Shown here in pieces: positions 3-10,166 of a stretch of 25,022 bases of DNA (the stretch's first letter is position 1; each line of letters opens with the position of its first letter). The position numbers and the translations under genes were made by a program. Source of the DNA: a virus; the IMG/VR virus record IMGVR_UViG_3300029267_003388, positions 1-25,022 of that record. One strand, 5' to 3'. Under the pieces are notes generated by a model, which was not told where the DNA came from, made no database searches, and saw only the letters and a list, made by a program, of their open reading frames with translations.

Positions 3-287
3 ATCGGCAACGCCTTCAGTGAGTACATCGCCAGCATGTTCCTCTCGACTGGCCGCAACTTCGGATCAGTCACGAGCAACCCGGCGATGATCAAGCACCG
101 TGATCGTTCGCCGTTGTGGAAGCGGATCCGCAAGCACGGGTTTGTCGCAGCACAAGGCAACGAAGGAACGGTGACTGGTATGGGCAAGACTGACTCTCGC
201 GATCGCATGACCAGCGGGTTTCGGTACGTCGGTCCTGCGAACGCCGTCGACGCGCGAGGGTTCCGCATTCGGGAGTCGCTGCGGTGA
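3..287 (+). CDS. 3' end of an unidentified gene (partial)
   Basis: The frame is open from the window edge to the TGA at 285-287, giving 94 residues without a needed start, so the gene begins upstream of the window. The visible part is basic and Gly/Arg-rich (for example SPLWKRIRKHGF), with no motif I recognise. The stop overlaps the GTG start of the resolvase gene in a GTGA junction, which implies translational coupling and a shared role in phage DNA metabolism. I do not recognise the family; a DNA-processing protein is only a guess from its neighbour. Confidence 0.6.
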   Translation: MGNAFSEYIASMFLSTGRNFGSVTSNPAMIKHRDRSPLWKRIRKHGFVAAQGNEGTVTGMGKTDSRDRMTSGFRYVGPANAVDARGFRIRESLR

Positions 288-766
288 GAATCCTTTCCAT
301 CGATCCGTCACTGACGTGTTGCGGCTGGGCCATCTTCGATCGCCACCATGCGAAGCTGCTGCACGTCGGTCGGATCATTCCCGGTGATTCGAAGAAACCA
401 CTGGCGAAGCGGCTCGAACGAATCGCCGAAGGTCTGACCGATCTGCCGACCGATTCATTCGATCGCGTCGTCATTGAAGTGCCCAGCGGACACGTCGGCC
501 GCAACCGTCACGGAGGTGGCGGGGCCGGCCTGTCGCTGTACGGTCTCGCGGTCGGGTACGTCATCGGCGTCACCAAATCACTCGGCCCGCCCGCGCTGGT
601 CAAAGAGAACGACTGGACGAACGGCGTGCCGAAGAAAACCCGCACGCTGGTCATTCAGCGCACCGTGCCCCGCTACAAATCGATCCCGGATCCCGGTGGT
701 GACATCGCTGACGCGATCGGACTCGGCCAGTGGTGGCTGCAGAAGCACCGCACGCAGCTCGGCTGA
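284..766 (+). CDS. RuvC-like Holliday junction resolvase
   Basis: This 160-aa protein resembles the RuvC endonuclease, which resolves four-way DNA junctions in recombination or before packaging. The N-terminal strand RILSIDPSLTCCGWAI has the RuvC first aspartate at residue 7. The second acidic residue is E65 in RVVIEVP, and the C-terminal pair is D140 and D143 in GGDIADAIGLG. E. coli RuvC uses D7, E66, D138 and D141, so the spacing agrees closely and the length is near the usual 170. The start is GTG at 284, overlapping the previous stop. It ends 11 bases from the convergent ASCH gene. The fold is shared with other RNase-H-like nucleases, so exact substrate specificity is inferred. Confidence 0.88.
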   Translation: MRILSIDPSLTCCGWAIFDRHHAKLLHVGRIIPGDSKKPLAKRLERIAEGLTDLPTDSFDRVVIEVPSGHVGRNRHGGGGAGLSLYGLAVGYVIGVTKSLGPPALVKENDWTNGVPKKTRTLVIQRTVPRYKSIPDPGGDIADAIGLGQWWLQKHRTQLG

Positions 767-777
767 TCCGAAGTGCC

Positions 778-1197
778 TCAGTCAGTCAGCTGCTCCCGCA
801 CGCGAAGCTCCCAATCCGGCGAGAGAGTGAACAGGCCCATCTGGCCGACGCACTCGACCGGCTCAGTCAGCGGCCGGATGTTGTCCAGGTACCATGCCTT
901 CGGACCGAACGCCCACGGGTCATACTCTCGATCGAGCAGCGACGGCGTCGACACGTCAACCACGTCGACCAGATCGACCACCGCGATGATCGCTCCGCGT
1001 GGCAAGTCATTGGACGCCGGCGGGTCGACACCATGTTCCCGGCAGAACGCCATCGCGGACTTGAGCGACTTGCGGGAGCTGCCGGCGTGGATCGCCAGCT
1101 CGCCCCGGTGCTTCGTGGACCACGTCCGGTTCTCGACGCGCTTGTGACCGGCAGCGATCGCCCACGCCCACGGCTGATGAATCGTTACGGCTTTCAC
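778..1197 (-). CDS. ASCH-domain protein
   Basis: A 139-aa protein that looks like a single ASCH domain, a PUA-like fold that binds RNA or modified nucleosides. The opening VTIHQPWAWAIAAGHKRVENR is the usual ASCH start (hydrophobic strand, QPWA, a helix, K-x-hE-x-R), followed by HRGELAIHAG and a conserved central strand GAIIAVVDLVDV. The start is GTG at 1197; a GAAAGGAT ribosome site lies inside the 3' end of the preceding gene, so it is probably translated by coupling. It is the last gene of the minus-strand operon and converges on the RuvC-like gene. Whether it acts on RNA, tRNA or a modified base cannot be told from sequence. Confidence 0.8.
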   Translation of the reverse strand: MKAVTIHQPWAWAIAAGHKRVENRTWSTKHRGELAIHAGSSRKSLKSAMAFCREHGVDPPASNDLPRGAIIAVVDLVDVVDVSTPSLLDREYDPWAFGPKAWYLDNIRPLTEPVECVGQMGLFTLSPDWELRVREQLTD

Positions 1198-2476: not shown

Positions 2477-3148
2477 TCACTGCTCCTGCACGCGAATCTC
2501 GGCTTGTGCGGCGTAGTACGCCGGCTTCGCGGTCACGTCGGTCACGGTGCCCATCGCCTGACTGATCAGATCAGTCGGGTTGTGGCAGCCGGTCCCGGTG
2601 AATCCATTGGCGTCGACCGTGCCGTCAGCCGTCACGGTCAACGTCCCGCCCTGTGGGTGATAGACGACCACCGAACCATCGGCGGCGTCTTCGCAGTACC
2701 AGCCCTGAGCCTCAGCGGCCGATCGGGCGACCTCGACGGCGTAGTGAGACTTCAGCGTCTCGATGTCGGCCACGTTGCCCCATGCTCCTTCGTAGTCGTC
2801 GAACAGCAGCTGCCCGTCGTCGGACAGGATCAACGGGAAGGACCAGTCCGGCAGCCGGATGCCGTAGCCGTCATGGGCAGCGATCTCGCCCGACTCGTCG
2901 TCACGTTCGAAGAGTTCGTGCCGGCCGGGGCCGATCGCTTCGCCGCCCATTCGCTCGGCCGCCCGGCCGAACGCGTCACGGTCGCGGAACTCAACGTCGA
3001 CCTTCATCGTGTGAGAATTGACGACGACGCGGCCGATGCGTCGCATGACCGGCTGGAACCGGCACAGGTCGACGACTTCGAACAGTGGGCAGGTGCGATC
3101 GCAGCAGAAGCCGCTGGTGATGTTCGTGGTGGCGTTGTGAATGGTCAT
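2477..3148 (-). CDS. DUF1257-DUF2997 fusion protein (Ycf35-like)
   Basis: This 223-aa protein joins two families usually found as separate neighbouring genes. Residues about 45-166 match DUF1257 (plastid Ycf35): the SHTMKVDVEFRD start, a single-site loop IRLPDWSFP (97-105), FDDYEGAWG (116-124) and YAVEVARSAAEAQGW (136-150). Residues about 168-212 match DUF2997, with a TVTADGTVDANGFTG strand pair, a conserved Cys (C188) and ISQAMGTVT. A 44-residue N-terminal extension containing C15, C16, C20 and C29 precedes the point where DUF1257 proteins normally begin. I chose ATG 3148 because AGGAT precedes it; an ATG 18 codons upstream would translate the leader repeat. Neither domain has an established biochemical role. 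It lies in the operon after the 303-aa protein and near the Ycf46-like ATPase. Confidence 0.82.
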   Translation of the reverse strand: MTIHNATTNITSGFCCDRTCPLFEVVDLCRFQPVMRRIGRVVVNSHTMKVDVEFRDRDAFGRAAERMGGEAIGPGRHELFERDDESGEIAAHDGYGIRLPDWSFPLILSDDGQLLFDDYEGAWGNVADIETLKSHYAVEVARSAAEAQGWYCEDAADGSVVVYHPQGGTLTVTADGTVDANGFTGTGCHNPTDLISQAMGTVTDVTAKPAYYAAQAEIRVQEQ

Positions 3149-3198
3149 GGTTCTGATCCTGGTGGTGATGGTGGTGATGGTCGTGGTCGCTGCGTTCG

Positions 3199-4110
3199 TC
3201 ACTCAGCAGCGGCGGGTTCTGCCTTCGGAATACGGATGGTTCGAGCCGGCCGGCGTTCGAGCACGTCGTTGACGGCTTCACCCATCTCGCTCAGCGTGTT
3301 CGTCAGCTGCTGCTTCACGGCGTCGGCGTCGAGCGCGTCGCGGGTGATTCCGCCGGCGAGATCGTCGAACTGATCAACCAGTCGATCGAGATCACCATTG
3401 CTGCCGATCGACAGGTCACGAAAGCGGCCGACGAACTCCTGAATGTGCCGCAGCTTGCCTTCCGGGAATCGCATGTTCTCGGCCGTGATGCGATCGCGAA
3501 GCTCGCCGACCAGGGTGGCGAACTCCGTCGCAAACGTCGTCTCGGCCAGTTCGACGGTCTCACTGAACCGGGCCTTCATCTTCGCCAGTTCCTGCTCGTA
3601 CAACGCCGGGTTGATCTGCAGGAGATAATCCGGCGGGGCGAGCGACGGGAAATCCCACGACATCTGAAACTCAGACGCCGGATCGGCCGGATAGTCGGAC
3701 CCGTCGAACAGACTCCCGAGCCGTTCGCGGGCGTCGTCGACGATCTCGGCATAGGCGGCACTCAGCTCGGCGACGGCGTCGGCCAGTTCACGTTCGAACG
3801 CCTGCAGCTGCTCGTTGAACGCCGTGACTTTCTCCTGACGCACCAGGCGGATGCCCTGCTCAACGTACGGCAGAGAATTCTGGAACCACCAGTCGCGAAT
3901 CGTGCGACGCAACGCGTTCAGTCGCAGGACGGCCGGATGCTTGCGATCGAGAAGTGCCTTGCTGCTGTTGATCTGCTTCGGGTCGGCACCGACTGTCTCG
4001 GCGAAGCGGTCGACAACCTCGCGGCCGAGAGCACGACGGAAGGTCATCCATTCGAACTGCACCCGCAGCCCGGTGGAAATGCGTTGCAGATGGTCGCCGT
4101 GGTTTGTCAT
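3199..4110 (-). CDS. hypothetical helical protein, 303 aa (possibly DUF3150-like)
   Basis: A 303-aa, mostly alpha-helical, charged protein with long Ala/Glu-rich helices (about residues 95-135 and 175-255) and no signal peptide or membrane segment. It begins GLRVQFEWMTFRRALGREV, with a SKALLDRKHPAVLRLNALRRT segment at about 49-69. The layout (short N-terminal strand, Ser-Lys motif, long helices, FQMSWDFP strand at about 148) reminds me of DUF3150 proteins that accompany phage and plasmid AAA+ ATPases, but this is a weak, unverified resemblance. It is the first gene of the downstream minus operon: the start at 4110 has GAAAGGA 10 bases upstream and the regulatory repeat 27 bases upstream. It may be a partner of the AAA+ ATPase. 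Confidence 0.72.
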   Translation of the reverse strand: MTNHGDHLQRISTGLRVQFEWMTFRRALGREVVDRFAETVGADPKQINSSKALLDRKHPAVLRLNALRRTIRDWWFQNSLPYVEQGIRLVRQEKVTAFNEQLQAFERELADAVAELSAAYAEIVDDARERLGSLFDGSDYPADPASEFQMSWDFPSLAPPDYLLQINPALYEQELAKMKARFSETVELAETTFATEFATLVGELRDRITAENMRFPEGKLRHIQEFVGRFRDLSIGSNGDLDRLVDQFDDLAGGITRDALDADAVKQQLTNTLSEMGEAVNDVLERRPARTIRIPKAEPAAAE

Positions 4111-4136
4111 GGTCAGGGTTCCTTTCAGGTAGTGGT

Positions 4137-4236
4137 GTGTGTTAGTGCGTTTGCACTAGCCGCGAACGAATCATCCACACGGCTCGAAGCGTGGATAGAG
4201 CGGGAACGATCGAAACCGGAAAAAATCCCAAACCCG
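4137..4236 (-). promoter_or_regulatory. regulatory repeat, copy 1 (operator/promoter of downstream minus operon)
   Basis: This segment aligns without gaps to 6194-6293. Bases 4137-4198 match 57 of 62 there, and 4199-4236 match 24 of 38. It contains the palindrome TAGTGCGTTTGCACTA (4143-4158), a second inverted repeat ATCCAC-N12-GTGGAT (4173-4196) and an A-rich run (4219-4225). It lies just before the 303-aa gene on the minus strand, as its twin lies before the 101-aa gene. I see no convincing -35/-10 pair, so the promoter role is inferred from position and duplication. Its left end overlaps the T run of the ATPase terminator. Confidence 0.7.
4143..4158. promoter_or_regulatory. operator palindrome O1
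   Basis: TAGTGCGTTTGCACTA has perfect 6-base arms (TAGTGC and GCACTA). Closely related sites occur at 6200-6215 and 6311-6326. The size and symmetry suit a dimeric XRE repressor such as the product of the gene at 6337; binding itself is inferred. Confidence 0.65.
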
Positions 4237-4258
4237 CCCGGCCGAAGCCGGGACGGGT
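4219..4258 (-). terminator. rho-independent terminator after the AAA+ gene
   Basis: On the minus-strand RNA the stem ACCCGUCCCGGC pairs with GCCGGGCGGGU (one bulged U) across a C(UUCG)G tetraloop, and is followed by UUUGGGAUUUUUU. It lies 18 bases beyond the ATPase stop codon and before the regulatory repeat of the next operon. It therefore separates the two minus-strand transcription units. Confidence 0.85.
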
Positions 4259-4275
4259 CGGGACCACCACCATGA

Positions 4276-5772
4276 TCAGTTCAGACCGGCCGGCGACTGA
4301 CGCACGCGACGGGTCGCCCCGCCGGCGTCGGGCTGGCTGTTCGCCGATCGCAGAGAATCCTTCGCCCAATTCCGCAGGTTGCGAATCGTGTCGCGCTGCA
4401 CCGTGGCGATGGGCTTGATCTGCTTCGTCAGCTCCTGGCAGACATCGAACGTCGGCTGCCGGCCGGTGCGACGGGCGGCCGACTTCACCAGCTGTTCCAG
4501 TTCGGCACCCGTCCAGTCGTCAGTCAGACGCGACACGTTGCCGATCAGATCGTCATCGAACGTGCAGCCGAAGCGTTCCAGATGCACCTGCAGGATCGCA
4601 TCCCGTTCGGCCGGCGTCGGGCAGTCGGTGAAGAACCGTTCGTCGAAGCGGCCGGCCCGCGTCAGTTCGGGCGGCAGCTTGCTGAAGTCGTTGCAGGTCG
4701 CGACGGTCAGAATCGGCGACTGATGCTCCTGCAGCCAGGTCAGCAGATGTCCGACCATCCCCAGCGTCGTGCCGCCATCCGTCTGAGCCGACGACGCGAA
4801 GCCGCCGAGTCCCTTCTCGACTTCGTCGAGCCACAGGACGCAGGGTGCGACGGCTTCGGCCAGCTTCAATGCCGCCCGCATGTTCTGCTCTGACTGACCG
4901 ACCAGGCCGCCCTTCAGTGCGGCAACGTCGAGACGCAGGACGGGCCATCCCAGCAGACTGCCGGCCGCTCGGGCTGACAGCGACTTTCCGGTACCGGGAA
5001 CGCCCACCAGAAGGACGCCGCGAACCCGCAGCTGCGGATCGTCCTGCACCGGCAGCACTTCGTCGGTCACGTAGGACTTCAGCCCGTCGAGACCGCCGAC
5101 CTGATCGCCGTCGACGGCCGGCCAGTATTCCAGGTGTCCGGACTTCCGCACCAGCTGGATCTTTTCGCGTTCGACGATCGCGGGATCGAGCTGCCCGCAT
5201 TCGACGGCCGACAACGCGAAGGCCGATTCCGCTTCCTCAAGAGTCAGCCCGGTCGCGGCGTCGAGCAGTGCGTCGGGCTTCGACACGTTCAACCCGGTGG
5301 CACTGCAGACGACACTGAGTGCCTTCTGCAGATCGTCACGCGACGGCAGTGCCTGATCGATGATCGGGCAATCGTGGGCCATTTCGGCCGGCAGATTCCA
5401 GGACGGGGCCAGCAGCAGGACCAACGCGCCGCAACCCTTCAGTGCGGCGATGCGATCGAGCAGCGGCCGATACGCCGGCCCGTTCGCGACGATGTGCTGC
5501 CAGTCACGCACCACCAGAATCACGTTGTCGCGGGTCGTCGCCTGTTCGAAGGCACCCGCGAACTGGCAGCGACTGTCGACGGTGGCGCCCTGCTTCAGAT
5601 CGACGAGGCCGCCGGCGGCCGCGATGCCCAGCAGCTGGTAGTCGTTCGCGTCATCGCCGAAGTGCTCGATCACGTCGGCGATCAGCCGGCGTTCCTCGAC
5701 AGTCTCGACGGCGACGATCGGATAGCCGGCTGCGTGGTACTGAGCGATGGTGTTGATGGTTGAAGTCGTCAT
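4276..5772 (-). CDS. Ycf46-like AAA+ ATPase
   Basis: This 498-aa protein has the two-part layout of Ycf46-type AAA+ ATPases. An N-terminal degenerate P-loop-like domain (about 1-210) begins QYHAAGYPIVAVETVEERR. A complete AAA+ core follows: Walker A GVPGTGKS at 257-264, Walker B CVLWLDEVEK with D316 and E317, sensor-1 Asn in ATCN (N361), arginine fingers R372 and R375 in TRAGRFDERF, and a WTGAELEQLV lid helix. All catalytic residues are present, so it should hydrolyse ATP and remodel a partner. I chose ATG 5772 (GAAAGGA upstream); the upstream alternative would translate the leader hairpin. The gene follows the 101-aa protein in one operon and lies close to the DUF1257-DUF2997 gene, matching the Ycf46/Ycf35 association. 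The substrate is unknown. Confidence 0.88.
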   Translation of the reverse strand: MTTSTINTIAQYHAAGYPIVAVETVEERRLIADVIEHFGDDANDYQLLGIAAAGGLVDLKQGATVDSRCQFAGAFEQATTRDNVILVVRDWQHIVANGPAYRPLLDRIAALKGCGALVLLLAPSWNLPAEMAHDCPIIDQALPSRDDLQKALSVVCSATGLNVSKPDALLDAATGLTLEEAESAFALSAVECGQLDPAIVEREKIQLVRKSGHLEYWPAVDGDQVGGLDGLKSYVTDEVLPVQDDPQLRVRGVLLVGVPGTGKSLSARAAGSLLGWPVLRLDVAALKGGLVGQSEQNMRAALKLAEAVAPCVLWLDEVEKGLGGFASSAQTDGGTTLGMVGHLLTWLQEHQSPILTVATCNDFSKLPPELTRAGRFDERFFTDCPTPAERDAILQVHLERFGCTFDDDLIGNVSRLTDDWTGAELEQLVKSAARRTGRQPTFDVCQELTKQIKPIATVQRDTIRNLRNWAKDSLRSANSQPDAGGATRRVRQSPAGLN

Positions 5773-5805
5773 GGTCGTGGTTCCTTTCGGAAGGTGGTGA
5801 TGGTC

Positions 5806-5830
5806 GCCCCGCCGCGACATGCGACGGGGC
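5806..5830 (-). promoter_or_regulatory. GC-rich intergenic hairpin, copy 3
   Basis: The arms GCCCCGCCGC and GCGACGGGGC with loop gacat, as at 2158-2182 and 2431-2455. In RNA sense it is followed directly by the GACCATCACCAC motif and then by GAAAGGA and the ATPase start. It may adjust expression of the ATPase relative to the 101-aa protein. Confidence 0.6.
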
Positions 5831-5850
5831 ACGGGGTGAAGTTCGTTGCT

Positions 5851-6156
5851 CTATTCGGTCACGTTCTGCAGGGACTTCAGACGGGCGAGCATGTCGCGAC
5901 GCAGGCGAATCTCGCCGCACAGACGATCGATGTCCGTGCCGTAGCCCTGAACCTCGCCGCAGCTGTTGATCGACGCCTGCGTGCCGTTCGTTTCGTCGTC
6001 GATCTCGCGGCGGCATTCTGCGGCCGTCCGGGTCAACGATCGGGCAAGGTTTTCGCATTTGTAGGCGAGGTTCTGCAGGGCGTCTTCGATGTCGCGCTCG
6101 GCCGTTTGAATGTCGAAGGTGAGGTGGTCAGTCAGGTTGTCGAGGAATGAAGCCAT
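5851..6156 (-). CDS. hypothetical helical protein, 101 aa
   Basis: A 101-aa soluble protein, nearly all helical and charged (FDIQTAERDIEDALQNLAYK, then heptad-like runs through LCGEIRLRRDMLARL). Three Cys residues occur, with no obvious metal motif. It is the first gene of the upstream minus operon; the regulatory repeat copy 2 starts 38 bases before its ATG, and it is followed by the AAA+ ATPase. The ribosome site is weak (GAAAGATC). It is the best candidate for an adaptor or regulator of the ATPase, but only by position. Confidence 0.6.
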   Translation of the reverse strand: MASFLDNLTDHLTFDIQTAERDIEDALQNLAYKCENLARSLTRTAAECRREIDDETNGTQASINSCGEVQGYGTDIDRLCGEIRLRRDMLARLKSLQNVTE

Positions 6157-6193
6157 TGTCGTGATCTTTCGGGCTGGTGGTGGTGATTGTCGC

Positions 6194-6293
6194 GTGTGTT
6201 AGTGCGTTCGCACTTGCCACGAACGAATCATCCACACGGCACGAACCGTGGATAGTTATGGATCAAAGAAATCTGAAAAAAATCAGAAACCCG
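6194..6293 (-). promoter_or_regulatory. regulatory repeat, copy 2 (divergent control region)
   Basis: This is the twin of 4137-4236 (81 of 100 positions identical by my hand alignment, no gaps). It contains palindrome O2 TAGTGCGTTCGCACTT (6200-6215), the inverted repeat ATCCAC-N12-GTGGAT (6230-6253) and an A7 tract flanked by TCTGA/TCAGA arms. It occupies the 180-base divergent gap between the 101-aa gene on the minus strand and the XRE regulator on the plus strand. That is the expected place for a genetic switch. Confidence 0.7.
6200..6215. promoter_or_regulatory. operator palindrome O2
   Basis: TAGTGCGTTCGCACTT is an imperfect palindrome with a perfect AGTGCG/CGCACT core. It differs from O1 at two positions and lies at the equivalent place in the duplicated control region. 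Confidence 0.65.
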
Positions 6294-6310: not shown

Positions 6311-6326
6311 TATCGCGAACGCACTA
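6311..6326. promoter_or_regulatory. operator palindrome O3, next to the regulator start
   Basis: TATCGCGAACGCACTA keeps one full half-site (CGCACTA) and a degenerate other half, centred on GCGAACGC. It ends 10 bases before the ATG of the XRE gene. That leaves little room for a ribosome site, so a bound repressor would block transcription or the transcript may be nearly leaderless. Autoregulation is inferred. Confidence 0.55.
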
Positions 6327-6336
6327 GGCTGCCCGC

Positions 6337-6576
6337 ATGGCGAAGAAACGAAACAACCCGGAAGATCTGGCCGATCAGATTCGTGAAGGCGTCGAAGCGG
6401 CCGTTGCGAAGGGCTGGTCCGTTAATGCGATCGCACACGCGGCCGGCGTGTCGCAGTCATCGCTCGCACACTGGTTGTCGGGTCGTCGTGCCGATATCTC
6501 GCTGCAGACGGCGTCGAAGCTGTGTATCTTCCTTCGCTGCCATCTGACGAAGCCACGCCCACGCCGGCCCGAATGA
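6337..6576 (+). CDS. XRE/Cro-type helix-turn-helix regulator, 79 aa
   Basis: A 79-aa protein dominated by one helix-turn-helix at about residues 27-62: WSVNAIAHAAGVSQSSLAHW, then LSGRRADISLQTASKLCIFL, with a basic C terminus. The size and single domain fit Cro or XRE repressors that bind short palindromes as dimers. It sits beside operator O3 and opposite the minus-strand operons whose control regions contain O1 and O2, so it is the natural candidate to govern them. It directly precedes the terminase gene. A small-terminase role is possible from that position, but the HTH type favours a transcription regulator. Confidence 0.82.
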   Translation: MAKKRNNPEDLADQIREGVEAAVAKGWSVNAIAHAAGVSQSSLAHWLSGRRADISLQTASKLCIFLRCHLTKPRPRRPE

Positions 6577-6604: not shown

Positions 6605-8587
6605 ATGACGATCGCGATATCGGCACTGCTGCCCGACGAAGTTCTGGCGTGCATTCGGCCACGCCCGGACATCAGCACGATCGATTGGGCGACACGCAAC
6701 GTGCGAATGCCGCACGATTCAAAAGTCCGGGGCGGATTCCGCATCGACCTGTTCCCGTACATGCGGGAACCGTTCGCCGTCTATGACGACCCGTACTATG
6801 AGCGCCTGACCATTCAGACGGCTTCGCAGGTCGGGAAAACAACCTTCGCACAGGTCTGCGTTGCGAAGACGGCCGACACGAACCCGCACCCGATGGCATG
6901 GGGCGAACCTGACGAACGATCGTGCAAGCGTGTCATCAGACGAACGTGGCGACTGTTCGATCGCACGCTGGAACTGCAGGACAAGCTGCCGCCGAAGCAT
7001 CAACGCGGCAGCGATCGCATCGAGTCGAGCACGTTCGTGGTGCATGGTGCATGGGCCGGCAGTGCGGCGTCGGCCGCCGACTTCGGTGCGTTGGTCGTCG
7101 TGCTCAATGAAACCGACAAGATGGCACCCAAGTCAAACGATCCGGAAGCTGACTTCCGGTATCTCCTGCAGGAGCGAACGAAAGGCTATGCCCACAGCAA
7201 GGTCATCGAACTGAGCACGCCGACGCTGATGCACGGTTCGTACATCGAGAAGCAACGGAAGCTCGGTGACAATCGATCGTGGCAGGTGCCGTGCCCGCGC
7301 TGCGGCCAGTTCGACGAGCTGCGAACCGGCGACGGCAAGGAACCCGGCGGCATCATCTTCGACAAGCTCAACGGCAAGCTGGATCCGCACACGGCCGAAG
7401 AGACTGCCCGGTACCAGTGTGCGAAGTGCAAAGGCGAATGGTTCGAGCACGAACGGTTCGACGTGATGCAGGCCGGCCGTTATGTGCCGGAGGGCTGCTG
7501 GATCGATCCCGATTCACACGAGCTGTGCGGCACGCAGCTGCGTCGCGGGAAGCACGCCAGCTTCGGCCCGTTGCCGACACTGGTGTCACTGCTGCCCGGT
7601 ATCACGCTCGGGAAGATCGCATCGCAGTGGGTGTCTGCACTGACCAGCGAGGACCGAGCCGGCCAGGTGCGGAACTACATCAACAGCTGGGACGGCCGCA
7701 CGTTCGATCCGCGGCCGATCAAGGTCGAAGTCGAAGACGTGGCGAAGCGTCTTGCCGTCCCGCAACCGGAACTCTACACGTGCCCCGAGTCGTCACGCTT
7801 TGTCACGGCCGGCGTCGACACCGGCCGCATCGGCGAAACCATGCTGTTCTACTGGACGCTGGTGGCCTGGTCCTACATTCGTCGCGGTCACGTGATTGCG
7901 AAAGGTGTGACGCATGGAGAGGATGAATTCCGGAAATTGATCGGCGAATGGTTTCGGGACGGTTTCGATCACGAAGACGGGCTGGGACCGTGTCCAATCA
8001 AGCGAGTCGGTATCGACGCTGGCTACGGTGTGGATTCCAATCGCGTCTACGACTTCTGCGACGGGCTGAAGAACGTGTGGCCGATCAAAGGCGGTGCCAA
8101 GGAGTTTCAGGACTGGTTCCAGCTGGGCTTTCAGCGTTCTAACGCACCGCGTCAGGTACTGGCTCGAAAACGCAAGCTCGGAATGGGTGACCTGATCATC
8201 GTCAACTCAGACCGCACACAGCAGTGGCGGCTTGATCTCACCACCGGCGTCATCAAGCCAGGTGCTCCGCAGTTTGTCACGATTCCGCAAGAGCTGGCGG
8301 ATGACACTGAATGGTTGTCTGAACTGATTGCCGACTATCCCGACGACACCGGGCCACGCCTGAAGTGGGAACGCAGCGGACCGAATGAAGGCGGCGACAC
8401 GCTGCGATATGCGCTGGTCATGGCCGAACACTTCGGCAATCGAAACGGCTACAAGTGGCGCAAGCTGCCGGCCAGAACGAAGGAAGAAATGTTGCAGCGG
8501 AATCCACAAACACCCGCTACACTGCCGGCCCCTTCGCGGGGTTTCCAGACGCCGGGCGGCCAGAACTTCCTTGCATCGCAACGCTGA
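6605..8587 (+). CDS. terminase large subunit, GpA family
   Basis: The 660-aa DNA-packaging motor and nuclease, close in size to lambda gpA. The ATPase part has the family's QTASQVGKT motif (71-79) and a Walker B-like strand ALVVVLNETDK (162-172), in which the usual first Asp is Asn168 while the catalytic Glu169 remains. A Cys-rich insert (CPRCGQ and CAKCKGEW) probably binds zinc, as in other GpA proteins. The RNase-H-like nuclease follows, with FVTAGVDTGRIGE, VGIDAGYGVDS and a C-terminal GGDTLRYALV acidic site. The ribosome site before ATG 6605 is weak. It opens the structural gene cluster and should act at the portal vertex. Confidence 0.93.
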   Translation: MTIAISALLPDEVLACIRPRPDISTIDWATRNVRMPHDSKVRGGFRIDLFPYMREPFAVYDDPYYERLTIQTASQVGKTTFAQVCVAKTADTNPHPMAWGEPDERSCKRVIRRTWRLFDRTLELQDKLPPKHQRGSDRIESSTFVVHGAWAGSAASAADFGALVVVLNETDKMAPKSNDPEADFRYLLQERTKGYAHSKVIELSTPTLMHGSYIEKQRKLGDNRSWQVPCPRCGQFDELRTGDGKEPGGIIFDKLNGKLDPHTAEETARYQCAKCKGEWFEHERFDVMQAGRYVPEGCWIDPDSHELCGTQLRRGKHASFGPLPTLVSLLPGITLGKIASQWVSALTSEDRAGQVRNYINSWDGRTFDPRPIKVEVEDVAKRLAVPQPELYTCPESSRFVTAGVDTGRIGETMLFYWTLVAWSYIRRGHVIAKGVTHGEDEFRKLIGEWFRDGFDHEDGLGPCPIKRVGIDAGYGVDSNRVYDFCDGLKNVWPIKGGAKEFQDWFQLGFQRSNAPRQVLARKRKLGMGDLIIVNSDRTQQWRLDLTTGVIKPGAPQFVTIPQELADDTEWLSELIADYPDDTGPRLKWERSGPNEGGDTLRYALVMAEHFGNRNGYKWRKLPARTKEEMLQRNPQTPATLPAPSRGFQTPGGQNFLASQR

Positions 8588-10047: not shown

Positions 10048-10120
10048 CGTGGCGTGGAGCAGACGGCAGCTCGCCGGGTTCATACCCCGGAGGTCGCGGG
10101 TTCGAATCCCGCCGCCACTA
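10048..10120 (+). tRNA. tRNA-Met(CAU), initiator type (tRNA-fMet)
   Basis: A complete 73-nt cloverleaf folds by hand: acceptor CGTGGCG/CGCCACT, D arm GAGC/GCTC with an 8-base loop containing GG, anticodon arm CCGGG-TTCATAC-CCCGG, variable loop AGGTC, T arm GCGGG-TTCGAAT-CCCGC, discriminator A. The anticodon is CAU. Initiator hallmarks are present: position 1 (C) does not pair with position 72 (U), three G-C pairs close the anticodon stem (GGG/CCC), and A11-U24 lies in the D stem. The T loop and variable loop also match bacterial tRNA-fMet. CCA is not encoded. It begins right after the stop of the upstream gene and ends 46 bases before the portal start, so it is probably co-transcribed with the head genes. 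Confidence 0.93.
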
Positions 10121-10166
10121 CTCGCACGTGTGAACGACGGCCGGCGTTTGAGACGGGAGACGCAGA

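Follow-up and report, generated by a model that had tools for sequence, protein, structure and literature searches.

Ycf46, an AAA+ ATPase, and Ycf35, a DUF1257 protein, have been retained for more than one billion years in cyanobacteria and red plastids. To our knowledge, neither has an agreed function. In the papers that we found, DUF1257, DUF2997, Ycf35 and Ycf46 are treated in the context of plastids and cyanobacteria: Ycf46 has been tied to stress and CO2 use (PMC7496141), and a cyanobacterial gene cluster comprises DUF2997, ycf35 and fed7 (PMC4284462). Here we describe a related set of genes in a virus record, IMGVR_UViG_3300029267_003388, whose 25,022 bases constitute the window analysed. 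The record holds no completeness estimate, and the fragment probably derives from a bacterial phage. The set comprises a Ycf46-type AAA+ ATPase, a DUF3150-family protein and a fused DUF1257-DUF2997 protein. We tentatively interpret it, at somewhat less than an even chance, as the phage form of an AAA+ complex for protein remodelling, old and as yet undescribed, that would act early in infection with partners docked through C-terminal tails.

The genes lie on the minus strand in the order, from 6156 downwards, of a 101-residue protein, the ATPase, a 303-residue protein, a 223-residue protein, smaller genes and an ASCH-domain protein. The head and packaging genes, beginning with the terminase at 6605, are on the plus strand. 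An earlier interpretation of the letters and their translations, hereafter the sequence-only reading, had placed the first four genes here, opposite the structural genes. It had described the ATPase as a complete protein of the Ycf46 two-domain layout and the 223-residue protein as DUF1257-DUF2997, and had guessed that the 303-residue protein was DUF3150-like. The coordinates, the arrangement and each of these descriptions were borne out, as detailed below. A near relative of the window, locus L002, was 94-95% identical, and comparison of the two yielded a ratio of nonsynonymous to synonymous substitution rates (dN/dS) of 0.10-0.16 for the module genes, which indicates that they are under purifying selection.

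The ATPase (P0001; 498 amino acids, ATG start) is encoded at 4279..5772 (-). Its Walker A (GVPGTGKS, residues 257-264) and Walker B (LWLDEVEK, residues 313-320) motifs are intact and occur in the normal order, sensor 1 is N361, and R372 and R375 are candidate arginine fingers. An N-terminal domain without a P-loop, which matches that of other family members, precedes this one intact AAA+ domain; this is the layout of Ycf46/Slr0374. Residues 15-479 align with homologues from the cyanobacterial loci L153 and L154, and identities with phage and cellular Ycf46-type ATPases are 24-42%. The protein matched Pfam AAA (2e-24), and its best PHROG was 8638, annotated as of unknown function (2e-86). The clamp loader PHROG reached it at 0.02 only, and none of the helicase loader, clamp loader or packaging ATPase families was its best PHROG match; the assignment to an ordinary replication-loader or packaging family, which the sequence-only reading had held open, was thus not obtained. 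In a phylogenetic tree, the ATPase fell within a mostly viral branch that includes Verrucomicrobia loci, on a long branch and with modest support, so that its placement is unsure. It did not group with the cyanobacterial proteins in this tree, and for that reason we do not call it a Ycf46 orthologue.

To avoid circularity, profiles were rebuilt with the window and L002, its near copy, left out and were run on the 389 open reading frames (ORFs) of the window. Each of these leave-out profiles matched its expected gene alone. The 223-residue protein (P0003; 2480..3148, minus strand, ATG start) was matched by both the DUF1257 (4.3e-14) and the DUF2997 (2.6e-9) profiles. According to Pfam, it scored 1.2e-4 against DUF2997 (PF11211), or 22.3 bits for a cut-off of 24.1, and had no match to DUF1257 (PF06868). 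The invariant G-x-C of DUF2997, kept in 125/125 of the domains, themselves selected by profile, is present as GTGC at residues 185-188. Relatives of P0003 are encoded as two adjacent genes; fusions were found in the window, in L002 and in two Clostridia loci (L098 and L131). These natural fusions suggest that DUF1257 and DUF2997 are in direct contact. An AlphaFold2 model of P0003 had a mean predicted local distance difference test (pLDDT) score of 85.6 and no match in the Protein Data Bank (PDB) at E <= 0.001; TBP-like and spermine-synthase-like folds, at 0.04 or worse, were not used. Separately, four loci that carry the ATPase and DUF3150 (L071, L074, L084 and L085) encode small DUF2997-like proteins, cluster C28, that are devoid of the otherwise invariant cysteine; DUF1257 was not found there.

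The 303-residue protein (P0002; 3202..4110, minus strand) is predicted to consist of long helices. It did not reach DUF3150 (PF11348) directly in a Pfam scan, and direct naming of this and the 101-residue protein with Pfam and PHROG returned chance-level matches only. PF11348 was matched by 10 of the 16 family members of P0002 tested, the best at 2.4e-24, and the DUF3150 leave-out profile matched P0002 at 3.9e-52. Because its relatives bridge to PF11348 and the leave-out profile matches, we assign P0002 to DUF3150. A single-sequence scan with P0002 found the near copy only, the other relatives having come from the neighbourhoods of the ATPase. Its closest relatives, at 33-35% identity, are the DUF3150 proteins of the permuted-ATPase clade described below. 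The AlphaFold2 model of P0002 (mean pLDDT of 85.7) also had no PDB match at E <= 0.001; the models of P0002 and P0003 thus give no function. Two proteins considered as DUF3150 relatives, SM1 gp028 and Ryadel gp98, had no similarity by BLAST, and a Ryadel-type partner, C4, was weakly DUF3150-like according to hhalign (probability 37, E 3.5e-4). We found no mention of DUF3150 in the literature searched, from which many subscription papers were absent.

To establish how general the set is, we used the ATPase to retrieve 80 viral loci which, with phage records added, yielded 68 ATPase clusters at 70% identity. DUF1257 was present in 35 of these, DUF2997 in 33 and DUF3150 in 25, with every partner gene on the strand of the ATPase versus 76% for all genes of at least 100 residues. 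A search from the DUF3150 clade of the window returned 16 viral loci in which ATPase, DUF1257 and DUF2997 were each found in 15, on one strand; the two loci that lack some partners, L275 and L266, end at contig ends. In one phage clade, DUF3150 is nearly obligatory (77/80 loci); across phages, the place of the extra partner is taken by DUF3150, a beta-rich protein of ~210 residues or a family of ~284 residues. In cells, we sampled 199 genomes of one phylum, reached via a Planctomycetaceae contig. DUF1257 was encoded within 1.5 kb of DUF2997 in 17/17 cases and of the ATPase in 16/17, and DUF2997 was within 1.5 kb of the ATPase in 31/36, all on one strand. These counts indicate that the core is a general bacterial operon that phages also carry. 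Overall, the ATPase, DUF1257, DUF2997 and DUF3150 recur together in unrelated phages and in cells, as the sequence-only reading had proposed should be checked, and its description of a portable module holds. The same is not so for the 101-residue protein (5854..6156, minus strand), a helical protein and the first gene of the operon, which that reading had counted as a member of the set: a relative was found in L002 only, and we do not count it as part of the conserved core.

The neighbours of the core differ between phages and cells. In a sample of 138 neighbours from viral loci, the commonest families were DnaB helicase, primase/helicase, ParB, DNA methyltransferase, RecE/RecT and HNH nucleases. 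In the 80 cellular loci, a radical S-adenosylmethionine (SAM) protein joined the core in 33 (Pfam Fer4_12, 1.6e-32 in L100), as it did in two viral loci, and a superfamily 1 (SF1) helicase sometimes did so. Five cellular operons (L100:4917-13464, L102, L104, L108 and L113) contain a Ycf46-type ATPase and a large SF1 helicase together with DUF2997, a divergent DUF1257 and the radical-SAM protein; these L100-type operons, whose helicase domains are MkoA-like, are a candidate undescribed system. In the Prochlorococcus phage P-SSM2 (L015:4010-4589), overlapping DUF2997 and DUF1257 genes lie between a carbamoyltransferase and the DNA polymerase gp43. No Ycf46-type ATPase was found in the 8-kb stretch covered; PSSM2_177 (Nol), considered as the ATPase of the pair, is a carbamoyltransferase.

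A second family-wide feature is the C-terminus. Many of the ATPases, DUF3150 proteins and unrelated neighbours end in R-x-hydrophobic-x-hydrophobic. A strict form of this motif, R-x-hydrophobic-[DENQSTKG]-hydrophobic at most six residues from the end, was present in 66/171 canonical ATPase tails, 35/75 permuted ATPase tails and 57/110 DUF3150 tails, as compared with at most 8, 4 and 10, respectively, when tails were shuffled. It was absent from DUF1257 tails and nearly so from those of DUF2997. In L109 (3812-9578), for example, the ATPase ends in RGGRTLDF and its neighbours in TERNIDL or ERKIDL; similar sharing of an R-x-hydrophobic-[DE]-hydrophobic tail occurs within the series L010-L176, including L103, L119 and L147, and the tail-bearing adjacent proteins include helix-hairpin-helix proteins. 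ATPase and DUF3150 tails from one locus resembled each other more than they did those of other loci at every redundancy cut (P 0 of 5000 at 70%; P of 0.0008 at 50% and 0.0044 at 45%, 8 pairs). In cells, the exact tail was found among neighbours within 1.5 kb in 19/76 cases when the ATPase had it and in 3/129 when it did not (Fisher P 7e-7). The shared tails are therefore a statistical signal of the family as a whole. In the window, the predicted tails of the ATPase (TRRVRQSPAGLN) and of the DUF3150 protein (ARTIRIPKAEPAAAE) are a divergent, extended (degenerate) variant of the shared tail.

A branch of the family has ATPases of unusual architecture. In gp103 of phage Tunturi_3 (L012:3252-4844) and its viral relatives, the Walker B block lies ~40 residues ahead of Walker A, with sensor 1 after. 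This order was found in 75/80 loci of the clade, five being unclassified and none having the normal order; the permuted proteins include those of L083, L084, L085, L088, L095 and most of L182-L261. An assembly error is unlikely because the contigs are several and independent and one phage has been isolated. We found no description of a permuted AAA+ protein in the literature searched, with the same limited coverage of subscription journals.

Turning to the regulation of the module, a 105-nt sequence is directly repeated with 80% identity, one copy preceding the DUF3150 gene (4132-4236) and the other the 101-residue gene (6189-6293). The former contains the palindrome TAGTGCGTTTGCACTA at 4143-4158; the latter lies between the divergent 101-residue and helix-turn-helix (HTH) genes and has an operator-like site at 6200-6215. 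A third operator-like site, with two mismatches, is at 6311-6326, directly upstream of the HTH gene, whose start is 10 bases away. The palindrome TAGTGCGTTYGCACTA matched five times versus 0.19 expected; the sites number three because two of the five matches are one site's other-strand reading. All three sites are conserved in L002. The HTH gene (6337..6576, plus strand) encodes a protein of 79 residues that matched a PHROG transcriptional regulator (3e-8), and this protein is the probable regulator of the three sites. The sequence-only reading had noted promoter-like repeats: the repeated DNA is real, and no sigma-70 consensus was found at it. A divergent regulator with shared operator-like sites would suit either early or lysogenic control and cannot discriminate between the two.

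Other features of the window include the ASCH-domain gene at the end of the operon (781-1197, minus strand; PHROG 3193, 2e-45), with relatives in L017, L033 and L042. A RuvC-like Holliday junction resolvase (284-763, plus strand; PHROG 159, 9e-19) is encoded near the left end, and a tRNA-Met (CAT) gene (10048-10121, plus strand) lies directly 5' of the portal gene. The terminase was 45% identical to that of one genome of the planctomycete sample, in which the region upstream differs. In tblastx comparisons with two prophage regions, the terminase was the sole credible match, scattered summed hits being disregarded. The terminase match is consistent with, and not proof of, a planctomycete host.

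Building on the observed gene content, co-occurrence, intact ATPase motifs, purifying selection and repeated operator-like sites, we propose the following model. The ATPase would assemble into a ring in which the AAA+ domain is active and the N-terminal domain is non-hydrolysing. DUF1257 and DUF2997, fused in the window, would jointly serve as a small adaptor or regulatory subunit, and DUF3150 would be a long-helix partner or client added by phages. Because the ATPase, DUF3150 and, in other lineages, unrelated partners carry similar C-terminal peptides, it is probable that they bind to a single shared receptor; by elimination, this may be either the ring or the unit made up of DUF1257 and DUF2997. 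Under the local HTH regulator, the machine would act early in infection and would remodel a protein complex, either one of the host or one involved in phage DNA metabolism. A bolder form of the proposal, possible but doubtful, is that phages and cells share an undescribed AAA+ remodelling system whose clients and partners all bear one kind of C-terminal peptide, read by DUF1257-DUF2997 or the ring, and that the phage branch adds DUF3150 and includes the clade with transposed Walker motifs.

Several observations weigh against the remodelling complex as proposed. About one third of the 68 ATPase clusters contain no DUF1257, DUF2997 or DUF3150, which indicates that the ATPase can also function in another way. 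The replication genes of the window are not in view within the 25-kb fragment, and DUF1257 and DUF2997 have no solved relative showing an adaptor fold. The tail motif was found by eye on the data on which it was tested, and the tests control for shared ancestry only partly; the tail result is thus a strong lead that falls short of proof. Finally, the RRVRQ and RTIRI of the window tails, followed by 7-10 residues, fit the loose core only and not the strict motif.

Other functions can be envisaged for the module. It may be a replication or recombination accessory, with DUF3150 as the nucleoprotein partner of an ATPase that loads, unloads or recycles the DNA-processing proteins of the phage. The modules of other phages lie beside genes for DnaB, DNA polymerase, primase, RecE/RecT and ParB, and the window has its RuvC-like resolvase at 284-763; however, the ATPase has no likeness to known helicase loaders or clamp loaders past the generic AAA+ fold, and in the cellular loci seen, the module has no association with genes of replication. 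We consider this reading unlikely. A counter-defence or host-takeover device, which would extract or unfold a protein of the host (perhaps one that bears the tail and is a client of the cell's version of the machine), is in our estimation distinctly improbable. The homologous operon in cells, at times with an SF1 helicase whose domains are MkoA-like, and the similar tails of the phage and cellular copies accord with it, but no link to a known anti-defence family was found and the PADLOC matches reflect shared domains. Both readings are special cases of the question of the target.

We regard as very unlikely a system tied to iron-sulphur (Fe-S) or radical-SAM chemistry, in which the DUF2997 cysteine would be modified or bear a cluster and the ATPase would deliver or recycle DUF2997. 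The G-x-C found throughout the profile-selected DUF2997 domains, the Fer4_12 gene of cellular and two viral loci, and the cyanobacterial proximity of fed7 (PMC4284462) are in its favour; no radical-SAM or ferredoxin gene adjoins the module in the window, nor does one in most phages. The least probable reading, hardly to be expected, is that the lysogen expresses the module as a cassette for defence or superinfection exclusion. Its position opposite the head genes and the operator-like sites that it shares with the divergent HTH regulator would suit such a cassette, but no integrase was seen within the 25-kb fragment, the neighbours in other phages are those of early regions, and PADLOC returned for the ATPase only a shared AAA+ similarity to IetA and TRIP13, with no specific defence component. 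The defence function suggested by the sequence-only reading was not supported, the IetA match being generic and the neighbours in other phages being mostly genes of replication and recombination. Of the two times of expression that it had suggested, lysogeny was not supported and early infection is the better fit: the replication and recombination neighbours in phages favour an early-infection remodelling machine over a lysogenic defence cassette.

The protein-remodelling complex that we propose would offer a way into an old problem. A compact phage version with fixed partners, near-obligate DUF3150 and shared tails makes the reader of the tail and the target of the ring testable, and deletion and assay are simpler for a set of phage genes than for a gene of plastids. 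If true, the permuted clade would demonstrate that the two nucleotide-binding blocks of the AAA+ fold can be swapped.

Among known systems, the cyanobacterial loci L146, L153, L154, L156, L161 and L166 encode DUF1257 directly after a Ycf46-type ATPase. The window ATPase is 33-36% identical to cyanobacterial Ycf46, and its place in the tree, modestly supported, is within a largely viral branch whose members have DUF3150 partners. The DUF2997-ycf35-fed7 cluster likewise has DUF2997 and DUF1257 as neighbours but has a ferredoxin as its third gene in place of DUF3150, and the two domains are fused in the window. Phages RHph_I4, L338C, HJ05, RcMenchie and SM1 have the order of the window, namely ATPase, extra protein, DUF1257 and DUF2997; by contrast, their extra protein is the beta-rich one of ~210 residues, not DUF3150, and DUF1257 and DUF2997 are separate. 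The Tunturiibacter phage Tunturi_3 has the ATPase, DUF1257, DUF2997 and a DUF3150 relative (23% identity over 97%) in one region, gp103-gp96, but its ATPase differs in having the Walker B block ahead of Walker A; the annotation of gp96 as an HNH endonuclease was without support in our analysis. The nearest solved AAA+ domains by sequence are those of VCP/Cdc48-type unfoldases (E 2e-41), which share two AAA-like layers with the ATPase; the latter has no P-loop in its first layer, no Cdc48 N-domain and other partners. The four-part phage set, the shared tail and the permuted clade appear to be undescribed in the literature searched. The families are known by name, and Ycf46 and Ycf35 by gene; the phage set is a variant of a known, unexplained kind.

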